From the NCBI RefSeq assembly GCF_030127105.1, contig NZ_CP126161.1:3100001-3164000 (forward strand): a stretch of 64,000 nucleotides of DNA. Reading direction: 5' to 3'. Below are positions 45,063 to 53,765 of the stretch, one piece after another. The notes under the pieces were generated by a model. That model was not told where the DNA came from. It saw nothing but the letters and a program-made list of their open reading frames with translations, and did no database searches. Position 1 is the stretch's first letter. Each line of letters opens with the position of its first letter. The DNA is from Haloarcula pelagica (lineage in GTDB: Archaea; Halobacteriota; Halobacteria; Halobacteriales; Haloarculaceae). A program made the position numbers and the translations under genes.

Positions 45063-46460
45063 CTACTCACCACTATCGGTCACTGGGTCGCCCAGGGCAC
45101 GTAGCTCTTGTGTAAGCTGGCTTACGGTTTCGTAGCGCGCGAGCTTCTGGCGGGCCATCGCCTTCCCGACCACGTCGTCGACTGCCGGTGGGACGGCCGC
45201 CACGTCGCTCGGTGCGGGACCCTCGCCGGCCACGACCCGCTCACGGACGGTGTCGAACGAGCCGGTGACGGGTGCGCGGCCGGTGAACAGCCGGAAACAG
45301 ACGGCGCCGAGCTGATAGATGTCGGTCGCGTGGTCGATGCGACCGAACCGGCGGTCGTAGTACTCCGGGGCGGCGTAGCGCGGGTCGAGGTAGCTCGCAG
45401 GGTCGAAGTGGTACCGGTAGATGTGCAACAGTCCGACGTTGTCAAGCAGCGGCGCCTGTCGCTCGTCCTCGGTGAGCACGTTCCCGTAGTACGCGACGTT
45501 CTCCGGATCGATCCCGCCGTGGACGATCCCCTGCTCGTGGAGTGCCGTGACCGTCCTCGCCAGCCGGGTGGCGTGCCAGACCGCGTCGGCCGGATCGAAG
45601 GCGTCCCGATCCGCGAGCGTCTCCGCGGTGTACTCCGTCGCGATCCACGGTCCCGGTTCCGTGTGCCAGCCGTACAGCGTCAGGACGTGCTCGATGTCGC
45701 TCGCGCTCGCCCAGTCGTCGAGCCGGGGGCGCAGGTCGGCGAGGAACTCTTCTTCGCTACCGGGGCCATGCAACAGCCTCAGCCCGAGCGCGTACTCCTC
45801 GTCGTCGCGCGTCCCGAGCGTGCGGTAGCTGTCGCCGTAGCGGCGGCTGTCCCGCGGCGCCAGGATCGACAGCCCGTCGAACGGGCTCTCGTGCTCGACG
45901 ATCGGGAGCCAGTCGGCGTCGGCGACCAGTGGCGTGCCACCGAGCCGGTCGTCGCCCTCGCCTCCGGCGTCCTCGGCACGGTCGCCGTCGGTCTCCTCGT
46001 CGTCGGTGTACACCTGTCGTGGGCCGTAGCCATCGCCCTGGCCGGGCAGTGTCGTCCGGCCGATATCGCGGTTCGACAGCGGCGAGCGGTCCAGCAGGGC
46101 GTTCCCGCGCCCGCGCTCGGTCCGCCGTCGGACGCGCTCGCCCGCCTCGCTGTCGAGGCTGTCGAGCACCGTCGAGACGGCGTCGGGATAGCTGACGGCC
46201 AGATACGACAGCGCCAGCTCCGTCGCCGGGCTGTCCGCGTCGACGCGGTCGGCGAGGCGACGAACGACGACCGACACCGCGTCCGGGTGAGCGTCGGCCA
46301 CGAGACAGAGTGCGGTCGCCGCTCCCAGGCGGACCTGCCGGTCGCCGACATCGAGCAGTCCCAACAGTGCGGGGATCCGCTCGCGGCTGGTGTCCTCGCC
46401 CGTGATGATCTCGGCGATGAGCTGTCGCGGGTCCCGCGCCCCCGGCGCGTCGGCTGACAT
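45063..46460 (-). CDS. Protein kinase-like (probable pseudokinase) with HEAT-type N-terminus
   Basis: This protein of about 465 residues has an N-terminal alpha-helical HEAT-like part (about 1-110, LLGLLDVGDRQVRLGAATALCLV and repeats), an acidic linker, and a kinase-fold C-terminal part. The catalytic loop reads HGGIDPENV at about 314-322, so the Asp of HRD is Gly and the following Lys is Asp; the DFG region reads LDNVGL; and the beta-3 VAIK lysine is not evident (YALGLRLL). The APE-like YAAPEYYD and the DIYQLGAVCFRLFTG segment are intact. I infer a catalytically weak or dead kinase. It is divergent from the HtrII-like gene. Confidence 0.75.
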   Translation of the reverse strand: MSADAPGARDPRQLIAEIITGEDTSRERIPALLGLLDVGDRQVRLGAATALCLVADAHPDAVSVVVRRLADRVDADSPATELALSYLAVSYPDAVSTVLDSLDSEAGERVRRRTERGRGNALLDRSPLSNRDIGRTTLPGQGDGYGPRQVYTDDEETDGDRAEDAGGEGDDRLGGTPLVADADWLPIVEHESPFDGLSILAPRDSRRYGDSYRTLGTRDDEEYALGLRLLHGPGSEEEFLADLRPRLDDWASASDIEHVLTLYGWHTEPGPWIATEYTAETLADRDAFDPADAVWHATRLARTVTALHEQGIVHGGIDPENVAYYGNVLTEDERQAPLLDNVGLLHIYRYHFDPASYLDPRYAAPEYYDRRFGRIDHATDIYQLGAVCFRLFTGRAPVTGSFDTVRERVVAGEGPAPSDVAAVPPAVDDVVGKAMARQKLARYETVSQLTQELRALGDPVTDSGE

Positions 46461-46609
46461 CTCGGCTCCCACTCGGACTAGGACGCTCGTCCCGCATTAT
46501 GCTACCGGGGGTCACGGTGCCACAGAGACGGTCGCAGTCACGACACGCCGCCCACCGAACGGCACGACCGCCCCCTGTTTATCACTGGTGAGAATAGGGG
46601 ATCAACGCT

Positions 46610-46615
46610 TTAGAA
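46610..46615 (+). promoter_or_regulatory. TATA box of htrII-sopII
   Basis: TTTAGA is centred about 27 bases before the transducer ATG, as expected for a leaderless haloarchaeal message. The downstream rhodopsin gene begins only three bases after the transducer stop, so this single promoter should serve both. Confidence 0.5.
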
Positions 46616-46638: not shown

Positions 46639-48960
46639 ATGACCGAAAAGAGGGACACGCCGCTCCCGAGCGTCGTGGGGGACAGCTACGCCGCGCGGCT
46701 CGGCGTCGCACTCGCGTTCGCGATCGTCGTCGTCGTCGCGTTCGGTGCCGTCATCAGCGTTCAGGCCTCGGCCACGCTGGAAGAGGACGTGGCCGGCGAC
46801 ATGACGGCGCTGTCGGAGACTCAGGCCGGGCAGTTAGACGCCTGGCTGACCACGACGCGCCGGGACGTGCGGACGACATCTCGACTGCCCGTCTTCACCG
46901 AGGGGTCCGCCACGGAACGACAGGCCAGACTCGAACAGTTGATCGAAGCCGATGCCGTCCCGCCGGACGTGGTCGCGGTTCACTACGTCAACACGGAGAC
47001 GGGACGGATCGAGGCGAGTTCGAACCAGCAGTTCGTCGGCGTCGACGCCGCCGAACAGGGGGCGCCGTTCGCGACCGACCCACCGGCGTTCGAGGGTCCG
47101 GACGATACCCACGTCACACGCCCGTTCACCGTTTCGATCGTCGATCACCCGATCATCGCCGTCGTCTCGCCGGTCCCCGGCGCGGAGAACCGGGCGCTCG
47201 TCTACATGACCGATCTCGGGGCGAAAGCCGACGAGATCTCGAACCAGCGCGAGGGGTCGTTCACGACGGTCGTCAGCACCGACGGACAGTTCGTCTCCCA
47301 TCCGAACGTCTCGATGATCGGTGCGACGGCCCCGGTCGCCGAGGCGGATGGCAGTCCACTCCGGTCGCTCGACGCCAGCGAGAGCGACTTCGTCGAGACG
47401 GAGTCGATGCTGATGGGGCTCACTCGGCTCTCGTCACACGACTGGGTCGTGATGGTCCACTCGAACCCAGCTCAGGCTTACGCGCTCAGCAGCCAGATCA
47501 ACTCCGATCTCGTCGGTCTGATCCTCCTGGCGATCATCAACCTCGGGCTGGTCGGGGTCACGATCGGCGGCAACACGATCGTCTCGTTGCGGCGGCTCTC
47601 GACGAAAGCCGAAGCGATGGCGGACGGCGATCTCGATGTCGACCTCGGAACCTCCCGGACAGACGAGTTCGGGACGCTGTACTCGGCGTTCGACAACATG
47701 CGGACCAACCTCGACGAACAGATCTCCGCCGCCGAGCGCGCACGCGAGGCGGCCGAGGAGGCCAAACAGGAGGCCCAACAGGCCCGGACGGAAGTCGAAC
47801 AGGAGCGCAACGAGATGGAAGCGCTCTCGGGCCACCTCGAACTCAAAGCCCAGGAGTACAGCGAGGCCCTCGAAGCGGCGGCCGACGGCGACCTGACCGC
47901 TCGCGTCGACACCGACAGCATGAGCGACGCGATGGCGGAAGTCGGCACGGAGATCAACAGCACGCTCGACGCCCTGGAAGCCCTCATCGCGGACGTACAC
48001 GCCTTTACCGGGAACGTGATGGACTCCAGCAAGCGCGTCGAGTCCAACGCCCAGCGGGTCGACCGGGCGAGCCAGCAGGTCTCGAACTCCATCGAGGAGA
48101 TATTCGAGGGGACGACCGAACAGAACGAGGGGCTCGAATCCGCCGCCGGCGAGATGGAGAACCTCTCGGCGACGGCCCAGCAGGTCGCGTCCTCGGCTCA
48201 GCAGGTCGCGGACATGTCCCAGTCGGCCGCCGAAGTCGGCGAGGACGGCCGGGAAGCCGCCCAGGAGGCGATCACCGAGATGAACGCCATCGAGGACCAG
48301 ACCGAGGCGACCGTCGAGGAGATCACCGCGCTCGACGACGAACTCGACGAGATCGGGGAGATCGTCGGCGTCATCACCTCGATCGTCGAACAGACGAACA
48401 TGCTCGCGCTGAACGCCTCCATCGAGGCGGCCCACGCCGACGGCCAGGGCGAGGGGTTCGCCGTCGTCGCCGACGAGATCAAGTCCCTCGCCGAGGAGAC
48501 CAAGGAGGCCGCCGGCGACATCGAGGCCCGGATCGAGCGCATCCAGTCTCAGGCCGGCGAGACCGTCGCGACGATGGAGTCGACCAGCGAGCGGATCACC
48601 GAGGGCGTCGGGACCGTCGAGGAGACCGTCGACGCCTTGGAGACGATCGTCGAGTACACCGAGGAGGTCGACACCGGCATCCAGGAGATCGACCGTGCAA
48701 CCGAGGAACAGGCCCGCACGGCTCAGGAGGTGATGGGGACGATCGACGACCTGACCGGTATCAGCCGACAGACCGCCACCGAGGCCGACACCGTCGCCGG
48801 CGCGGCCGAGGACCAGGCGGCCTCGATCGCACAGGTCTCCGACTCCGCCGGTGAACTCCAAGCACGCGCGGCGGAACTGGAATCGCTGCTCGAACGCTTC
48901 GAGGTCGACGCTGCCCCGGACGGCGAGGGCGGGCAGGCGACCGCTGCGACCGACGACTAA
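46639..48960 (+). CDS. htrII: Sensory rhodopsin II transducer (HtrII-like methyl-accepting protein)
   Basis: This 773-residue transducer has TM1 at about 21-43 ([20 protein letters not shown]), a large extracellular domain from 44 to about 289 that looks like a Cache-type ligand sensor, and TM2 at about 290-313 ([20 protein letters not shown]). It continues with a HAMP domain at about 314-367, a second HAMP-like helix region at 412-455, and the MCP signalling hairpin at about 574-620 ([20 protein letters not shown]). Size and layout match the Halobacterium HtrII type, which also senses serine, rather than the short Natronomonas HtrII. The identity is given by the adjacent rhodopsin; whether it binds an amino acid is inference. 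Confidence 0.88.
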
Positions 48961-48962
48961 CG

Positions 48963-49670
48963 ATGGATACGATCACGACCTGGTTCACGCTGGGACTGCT
49001 TGGCGAACTGCTGGGGACGGCCGTACTGGCCTACGGTTACACGCTCGTCCCCGAGAGCGACAGACGGCGGTACCTCCTGTTGGTCGCGATCCCCGGGATC
49101 GCCGTAGTGGCGTACGTACTTCTGTTCCTGGGGATCGGGACGATCCAGAGCGACGGCCACACGGTCTACGTGGTCCGGTACGTCGACTGGCTGTTGACGA
49201 CGCCGATCAACGTCCTCTACCTGGGGCTGCTGGCCCACGCCTCCCGGCAGGACATCGGCACGCTCGTCGGACTCCAGGCGCTGACGATCGTCTTCGGGTT
49301 CGCGGGGGCCGTGACTGCTTCCCCCCTGAGCTACGGGCTGTTCGCGCTCGGCGGAGCGGCCTTTGCCGGCGTCGTCTATCTGCTGTATCGCGATGTCGCG
49401 GCCGCCGCGACGGCCTCGCTCTCCGATCTCGAAGCCGGGCTCTACCGGACGCTACGGAACTTCGTGGTCGTCCTGTGGCTGGTCTATCCCGTCGTTTGGC
49501 TGTTGAGTCGGGCGGGTATCGGTATCATGGACGTGGAGACGACCGCGCTCGTGATCACGTATCTCGACGTAGTGACGAAGGTCGGCTTCGGCCTGATCGC
49601 GCTCTACGGGCGGACGACGCTCGTCTCGGTCGGCGAGACGGACGCCGGGAGTGCGATCGCCGACGACTGA
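48963..49670 (+). CDS. sopII: Sensory rhodopsin II (blue-light phototaxis receptor)
   Basis: This 235-residue seven-helix retinal protein has the retinal lysine Lys 206 in YLDVVTKVGFG, counterions Arg 72, Asp 75 and Asp 202, and retinal-pocket Trp 172, Tyr 175 and Trp 179 (LWLVYPVVWLL). Thr 205 corresponds to the SRII signalling threonine (Thr 204 in Natronomonas), where bacteriorhodopsin has Ala. The proton-donor site (Asp 96 in bacteriorhodopsin) is Tyr 86, so it is not a pump. Phototaxis repellent signalling through the upstream transducer is expected. SRI or a middle rhodopsin is less likely because of Thr 205 and the helix F/G sequence. Confidence 0.9.
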   Translation: MDTITTWFTLGLLGELLGTAVLAYGYTLVPESDRRRYLLLVAIPGIAVVAYVLLFLGIGTIQSDGHTVYVVRYVDWLLTTPINVLYLGLLAHASRQDIGTLVGLQALTIVFGFAGAVTASPLSYGLFALGGAAFAGVVYLLYRDVAAAATASLSDLEAGLYRTLRNFVVVLWLVYPVVWLLSRAGIGIMDVETTALVITYLDVVTKVGFGLIALYGRTTLVSVGETDAGSAIADD

Positions 49671-52899: not shown

Positions 52900-53478
52900 A
52901 TGAGTGACACGGAGAGCGACGACGGTGCAACTATGACGGGTGTCGTCATCGATGTCCTCCCCCACGGGCGGGCCTCGGACGACCGTCCCCAGCACCAGAA
53001 AGATCCGCTCGCGTTCGTCCTCGGGATCGAGGAGTTCTACATCTACGAACTCGTCTTGGACGGTGACTCGGATGTCTCGATCGGTGACCGGGTCGATCTG
53101 ACTGCCTTCGGCCGTATCAACGAGGTCGACTTCGAGGACCTCCCGAGCGGGGCCCGCTCGGAACTGGAGTACGTGGTCGAGGAGGTCGTCGAGGACAACG
53201 AGCGGCGGTTCGTCGACTTCTACAACGACGCCCAGCCGATCACCCTCCGCCTCCACCAGTTGAACCTCCTGCCGGGAATCGGGAAGAAACTGCGCAACTC
53301 GATCCTCGACGAGCGCAAACGCAAGCCCTTCGAGAGCTTCGAGGACCTCCAGGAGCGTGTCAGCGGCCTCCACAATCCCGAGGAAGTCCTCGTCGAGCGG
53401 ATCCTGGAGGAACTGCGTGAGGACGACCTGAAGTATCGGACGTTCGTGCGCCGGTCGGAGCAAGGCGAGGGCGAGTGA
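52900..53478 (+). CDS. DUF655 protein (putative RNA-binding, OB fold plus HhH)
   Basis: This 192-residue protein has an N-terminal OB-like part (GVVIDVLPHGRA, GIEEFYIYELVLDGD, IGDRVDLTAFGRIN) and a helix-hairpin-helix in NLLPGIGKKLRNSILDER. It is the archaeal DUF655 family, found beside ksgA and rpoF and presumed to act on RNA or in rRNA processing. Its last five codons and stop fall inside the first copy of a 60-base tandem repeat, so the C-terminal EQGEGE may be set by the repeat. Confidence 0.88.
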   Translation: MSDTESDDGATMTGVVIDVLPHGRASDDRPQHQKDPLAFVLGIEEFYIYELVLDGDSDVSIGDRVDLTAFGRINEVDFEDLPSGARSELEYVVEEVVEDNERRFVDFYNDAQPITLRLHQLNLLPGIGKKLRNSILDERKRKPFESFEDLQERVSGLHNPEEVLVERILEELREDDLKYRTFVRRSEQGEGE

Positions 53479-53735
53479 AGCGAGGCCTCGAAGCGGAACG
53501 GAGAGAGCGGAGCCGTGGAGCAAGGCGAGGGCGAGTGAAGCGAGGCCTCGAAGCGGAACGGAGAGAGCGGAGCCGTGGAGCAAGGCGAGGGCGAGTGAAG
53601 CGAGGCCTCGAAGCGGAACGGAGAGAGCGGAGCCGTGGAGCAAGGCGAGGGCGAGTGAAGCGAGGCCTCGAAGCGGAACGGAGAGAGCGGAGCCGTGGAG
53701 CAAGGCGAGGGCGAGTGAAGCGAGGCCTCGAAGCG
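53457..53735 (+). repeat. Perfect 60-bp tandem repeat (about 4.65 copies)
   Basis: Four identical 60-base units (53461-53520, 53521-53580, 53581-53640, 53641-53700) are followed by a 35-base partial unit to 53735, and a shared GGAG extends the first copy to 53457. No mismatch is seen among full copies. Each unit holds GGCGAGGGCGAGTGAAGCG and AGGCCTCGAAGCGG. The first unit contains the DUF655 stop, so the array probably grew from the end of that gene. Because 60 is divisible by three, open frames run through it on both strands; these are not genes. The array separates DUF655 from ksgA. Confidence 0.98.
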
Positions 53736-53765
53736 AGACGGGTCGGCCGACAGCGCGAGTAGGCG

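Follow-up and report, generated by a model that had tools for sequence, protein, structure and literature searches.

In the SRII systems studied so far, the light signal passes from the isomerised retinal through strain on the Thr204-Tyr174 pair to a tilt of helix F, a rotation of TM2 in the transducer HtrII and on through the HAMP domain to CheA (PMC3274258, PMC11992208). Both residues of the pair are needed for signalling, Thr204 being reported as essential in NpSRII of Natronomonas pharaonis (PMC11992208, PMC3274258), and the SRII of Haloarcula marismortui (HmSRII) mediates negative phototaxis at 468 nm (PMC6450946). A chemical input is reported for Halobacterium salinarum, whose HtrII is listed in PMC3579733 as a receptor for blue light (repellent) and serine (attractant), and in PMC3274258 for the same two stimuli, both papers citing Hou et al. 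1998 for the serine taxis. For dCache receptors as a class, an amino-acid-binding motif has been published (PMC11237719).

The locus described here belongs to the 4.46-Mb genome of Haloarcula pelagica and was analysed within a 64-kb stretch of DNA (position 3.10-3.164 Mb), referred to as the window. Its features are:

46579-46595, plus strand: promoter element TTATCA-N4-TGARAAT, an imperfect inverted repeat and candidate operator (perfect match; kept in relatives)
46607-46613, plus strand: TATA-like box CTTTA, ~28 nt ahead of the htrII start (core TTTA unchanged in all 9 upstream regions aligned)
46639-48960, plus strand: HtrII-type transducer gene, 773 aa (frame confirmed; Pfam matches)
46681-46761, plus strand: TM1 of HtrII, residues ~15-41 (hydropathy)
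46762-47502, plus strand: extracellular dCache sensor of HtrII, residues ~42-288 (AlphaFold, VIA, A2 profile)
47503-47571, plus strand: TM2 of HtrII, residues ~289-311, holding Ser289 and Asn301 (hydropathy)
47569-47715, plus strand: HAMP domain of HtrII, residues 311-359 (Pfam PF00672, 45 bits, 1.3e-11)
48211-48759, plus strand: MCP signalling domain of HtrII, residues 525-707 (MCPsignal PF00015, 144.1 bits, 4.8e-42)
48963-49670, plus strand: sensory rhodopsin II gene (sopII), 235 aa (Pfam, PDB match, residues, trees)

Both genes are co-directional, with the transducer upstream and a gap of 2 nt between htrII and sopII. The initial annotation had placed the system at 46639-49670, and its coordinates, both genes and the residues that it named were right; its reading of the genes as an SRII/HtrII phototaxis pair is supported. 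In an archaeon of Haloarcula/Halomicroarcula type, the two genes very probably make up an htrII-sopII operon that serves blue-light avoidance together with dCache chemosensing. The divergent neighbour (45063-46472, minus strand) encodes a protein with a protein-kinase-like C-terminal part, slightly under the Pfam cut-off, and head-to-tail repeats coding for KRGLEAERRERSRGARRGRV are found at 53475-53762, right after a DUF655 gene.

Hydropathy and Pfam identify two TM helices, a HAMP domain and an MCP signalling domain in the window HtrII, and hydropathy places ~247 residues outside the membrane, in agreement with the ~245 first estimated. The Pfam Htr2 TM model, which spans a sensor-less TM1-TM2, scored 15.9 bits (cut-off 25), and the H. 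salinarum-type transducer (locus L098) likewise lacks a listed match. When the sensor-domain profile was run over 242 genomes of the class, 55 of them proved to have a long transducer, at E-values of 2.3e-65 or better, followed after a gap by a match at 8.5e-45, the remainder being weaker. An SRII-type rhodopsin lies directly downstream in all 40 strong long-transducer loci that were read out. Sensor-less transducers (~445-590 aa from the first Met) pair with 14 other SRIIs, including that of the Natronomonas-type locus L112. The long HtrII is the commoner form in the class sample and the short Natronomonas form the less common one, which overturns the rarity implied at the outset; the phrase "cytosine-lacking short HtrII" used there was garbled, although the intended contrast with the sensor-less Natronomonas form is correct. 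The tree calls for about three changes between long and short transducers, of which supported branches make two or more unavoidable. These data indicate that haloarchaeal HtrII commonly links a light receptor and a chemosensor-type domain within a single transducer, and that this is not a Halobacterium oddity. In one locus of Halomicroarcula sp. SYNS111 (L004, upstream of 4998), htrII is open only over its C-terminal part, the N-terminal half being out of frame through mutation or sequencing error.

An AlphaFold model of residues 40-292, computed with 14 natural homologues as input, reached a pLDDT of 87.2 and a pTM of 0.84, and shows the long helix and two PAS-like modules that define the dCache_1 fold. 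Comparison of such a model with solved dCache sensors had been suggested in the initial annotation, and its outcome supports the proposed fold: the best solved matches in Foldseek were amino-acid-binding dCache domains (Mlp24, CtaA, Mlp37, PctA; E from 7.6e-12), and VIA gave Z 20.6 against Mlp24 with proline (rmsd 2.7, 223 aligned) and Z 20.5 against Mlp37 with serine (rmsd 3.0, 231 aligned). At the level of sequence, a 49-row sensor profile (A2) matched Mlp37, PctB, PctA, CtaA and Mlp24 among the PDB sequences at 6.5e-08 to 3.4e-05, and each of the 49 HtrII sensors hit the Pfam model dCache_1, with E no higher than 0.1 and 3.5e-13 for the best of them. The window sensor alone reached 14.6 bits against the same Pfam model, below the gathering cut-off of 45, and as a single sequence it matched nothing among the PDB sequences. 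Because it falls under the Pfam cut-off, yet the family profile matches solved dCache chains, the window sensor counts as a divergent dCache on the evidence of fold and profile, not as a Pfam-level match. A profile of the distal half (A3) gave chance matches only, and no residue-level mapping of the upstream pocket half to PctA.

In dCache domains ligands bind in the membrane-distal module. Among the HtrII sensors this module is also the richer in columns conserved at 85% or more, with 28 of 86 against 9 of 72 for the proximal one (p = 0.004); several residues do not vary in any of the 49 sensors. The conservation of the distal module is consistent with a putative working ligand pocket, for which Tyr116, Ser127, Ser128, Gln140, Phe144, Phe163, Asp169, His170 and Asp192 are candidate lining residues. 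Judged by fold and conservation, the membrane-distal half of the HtrII sensor is a probable binding site for a small molecule.

One explanation is that the window sensor recognises serine through a non-canonical pocket, as is reported for H. salinarum HtrII. The domain is orthologous and occupies the same operon position, the H. salinarum protein is listed in PMC3579733 as a serine attractant receptor, and serine-bound Mlp37 is, with Mlp24, among the nearest solved folds. Against this, the published amino-acid motif was found in none of 58 HtrII sensors, L098 included, and its core [RK]xW[YFW] was likewise absent from all 58, both scans being run without a positive-control sequence. The genome that carries L098 encodes a BR that, outside the N-terminal edge of a 260-residue alignment, matches that of H. 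salinarum (PDB 1m0k), and for this reason L098 is taken to stand for H. salinarum HtrII. Its sensor shares only 36.9% identity with that of the window and differs at two positions of interest: position 170 is His in the window and Phe in L098, and position 192, which in our alignment corresponds to the pocket Asp that binds the amino group, is Asp in the window and Asn in L098. The combination His170/Asp192 occurs in 27 of the 49 sensor rows and Phe170/Asn192 in 17; a coupling of the two positions was considered and rejected, as the pairing follows lineage and only 3 supported independent contrasts exist. Taken together, we consider serine recognition by the window sensor doubtful. As the motif is absent and the window and L098 differ at 192 and 170, the serine specificity should not be transferred from H. 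salinarum to the window HtrII, for which serine is a possible ligand but not one favoured by the motif. The likeness to the Halobacterium HtrII that had been drawn initially holds for the architecture, but not for the serine that was carried over with it. Any serine binding by H. salinarum HtrII would take place in an unusual pocket, and the standard amino-acid pocket is unlikely to underlie the serine sensing reported for it.

The Halobacterium transducers BasT and CosT dock the binding proteins BasB and CosB, and a sensor that no longer binds a ligand could serve as such a dock, or as a mere structural spacer. This would fit the loss of the amino-acid motif and the finding that the Trp and Tyr carried by most other sampled haloarchaeal dCache domains are both Phe in the window sensor (Phe144 and Phe163). 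We nevertheless think it unlikely, as the strongly conserved columns cluster in the ligand-binding module, several residues are fixed throughout the 49 sensors, and no recognisable binding-protein gene is present among the neighbours checked. A sensor that binds a small molecule is the reading that we favour.

The rhodopsin matches Pfam Bac_rhodopsin at 9.9e-62, and its key residues are Arg72, Asp75, Tyr86, Tyr175, Asp202, Thr205 and Lys206. It possesses the retinal lysine (Lys206) and the counter-ion (Asp75) of a sensory rhodopsin and, as had been noted from the start, no proton donor, Tyr86 occupying the site of Asp96 in BR. Its top PDB match is NpSRII (159.8 bits), followed by archaerhodopsins (~125). 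In a tree of 94 rows there is a single starred clade for each of HR, SRI and SRM, and a single weakly supported group for BR (support 54), all of them outside the clade of the window rhodopsin, which falls within a starred set of 8 rows (itself and 7 long-transducer SRIIs) and also within a larger starred set, of 27 rows. When 69 rows were used for a further tree with bootstrapping, the window rhodopsin grouped with Haloarcula/Halomicroarcula proteins at 100/98, and its named relatives are from Haloarcula, Halomicroarcula, Halomicrobium, Halovenus and Salinibaculum. The comparison with SRI, SRII and SRM proposed in the initial annotation has in this way returned an SRII, and the whole genome encodes BR, HR and this SRII as its only rhodopsins. 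The alternatives of a pump, or of an attractant receptor resembling SRI, are extremely improbable: the protein shares their superfamily and has a transducer partner, but it lacks the Asp96 carboxylate (Tyr86), carries the SRII residues, and lies apart from SRI, SRM, BR and HR.

The signalling pair Thr204/Tyr174 of NpSRII corresponds to Thr205/Tyr175 in the window SRII, although this pair is not universal in the family. Residue 205 is Thr in 11, Ser in 21 and Ala in 18 of 50 long-transducer SRIIs, and Thr in 13 of the 14 SRIIs with a short transducer. Tyr200 is conserved without exception in the 62 SRIIs where that site could be read. Since long-transducer SRIIs often carry Ser or Ala at 205, the Thr204 signalling rule may not hold generally. 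The naming of Thr205 as the SRII signalling threonine was correct as to its position next to Lys206 but too simple as a rule. A tie between Thr205 and short transducers was also considered, and there are too few independent changes for a test. Among other opsins encountered, the counter-ion Asp is replaced by Gln in L119 (G239, RYAQWLLATPL) and L120 (G005, KYGQWLLATPL), both of which adjoin short transducer-like ORFs, and L153 (G099, 1483-2184), from a Natronomonas-like genome, encodes an opsin-like protein whose retinal lysine is replaced by Met, directly next to an MCP gene.

The residues of the signalling path are present in the window pair, with Thr205, Tyr175 and Tyr200 in SRII and Ser289 and Asn301 in TM2 of HtrII, the latter two being the aligned counterparts of Ser62 and Asn74 in HtrII of the Natronomonas type. 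By analogy with the studied homologues, from which the repellent sign is also taken, blue light would isomerise the retinal on Lys206, strain would reach the SRII/HtrII membrane interface via the Thr205-Tyr175 bond, TM2 and HAMP of HtrII would then move, and the altered CheA activity would change archaellum switching so as to produce blue-light avoidance. We propose that the dCache domain, with its small molecule bound, would feed the same TM2-HAMP path, and that the receptor would therefore integrate light and a chemical cue. The genome also encodes CheA, CheW and CheR, archaellins and two BCD retinal-forming enzymes; a stop flagged inside a CheW-domain match proved to be the normal end of cheA.

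Upstream of htrII lies the element TTATCACTGGTGAGAAT, which ends 43 bases before the ATG and is followed by the TATA-like CTTTA. It is the sole site in the window with at most 1 mismatch (0.01 expected), and is similarly placed in nearly all Haloarculaceae htrII loci. When up to 1 mismatch is allowed, the looser pattern TATCA-N4-TGA[ATG]A is present in 35 of 49 homologous loci, at an almost constant position ahead of htrII; 500 base shuffles gave 0.24, a figure that overstates independence as the loci are related, and reversed sequence gave 0. Besides the window, the element was noted upstream of htrII in L005-L016, L081-L088 and L121-L134. At the centre of the element the four bases differ between htrII loci, and some family members have the full palindrome TATCA-N4-TGATA. 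Because its place is fixed while its central bases are free, the element looks regulator-bound, and judged on these sequence features it is likely to be an operator of SRII-HtrII operons. If CTTTA is indeed the TATA box, the promoter is probably leaderless. A limited literature search found no published description of the element, which offers a concrete handle on the regulation of htrII-sopII operons. A taxis-wide regulon was looked for and not found, the other genomic near-matches lying near unrelated genes; one of them precedes a gene for a putative KaiC-like ATPase.

Tentatively, we suggest as a possible broader picture that HtrII sensors form a dCache subfamily of their own with a non-standard pocket, perhaps for serine in Halobacterium and for another ligand in Haloarcula, and that a dedicated regulator acts on the TATCA-N4-TGATA-like palindrome. 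If so, light and a chemical cue would be joined at the receptor, and regulation of the operon would be conserved across the order.

The wider relatives of the sensor are the dCache_1 amino-acid receptors PctA, Mlp37, Mlp24 and CtaA, which share its fold (Z ~19-21) and show significant profile similarity; unlike them, the window sensor lacks the Arg-x-Trp-aromatic core and has Phe163 at the position of the pocket Tyr. NpSRII/NpHtrII of Natronomonas pharaonis shares the signalling residues, including Thr204/Tyr174, and the TM2 interface residues Ser62/Asn74, but in the Natronomonas-type L112, whose rhodopsin is 98% identical to NpSRII, the transducer is ~534 aa long and without an extracellular sensor. 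Halobacterium salinarum (L098) resembles the window in its operon order, its SRII rhodopsin and a long HtrII that bears the same dCache domain, and differs in having Ser for Thr at 205, Ser for Asn at 301, and Phe170/Asn192 for His170/Asp192 in the sensor. Closest are the SRII/HtrII pairs of Haloarcula vallismortis (L011) and H. marismortui, with the same gene order and transducer length (773-774 aa); in H. vallismortis, reportedly covered by a 1995 PNAS paper on SRII and HtrII that PMC3579733 cites, the sensor domain and the rhodopsin are each 72% identical to those of the window, and apart from Phe in place of Tyr86 there is species-level divergence only. As the same pair is common among relatives and the long transducer form is widespread, the SRII/HtrII pair of the window is an ordinary member of an already known system.
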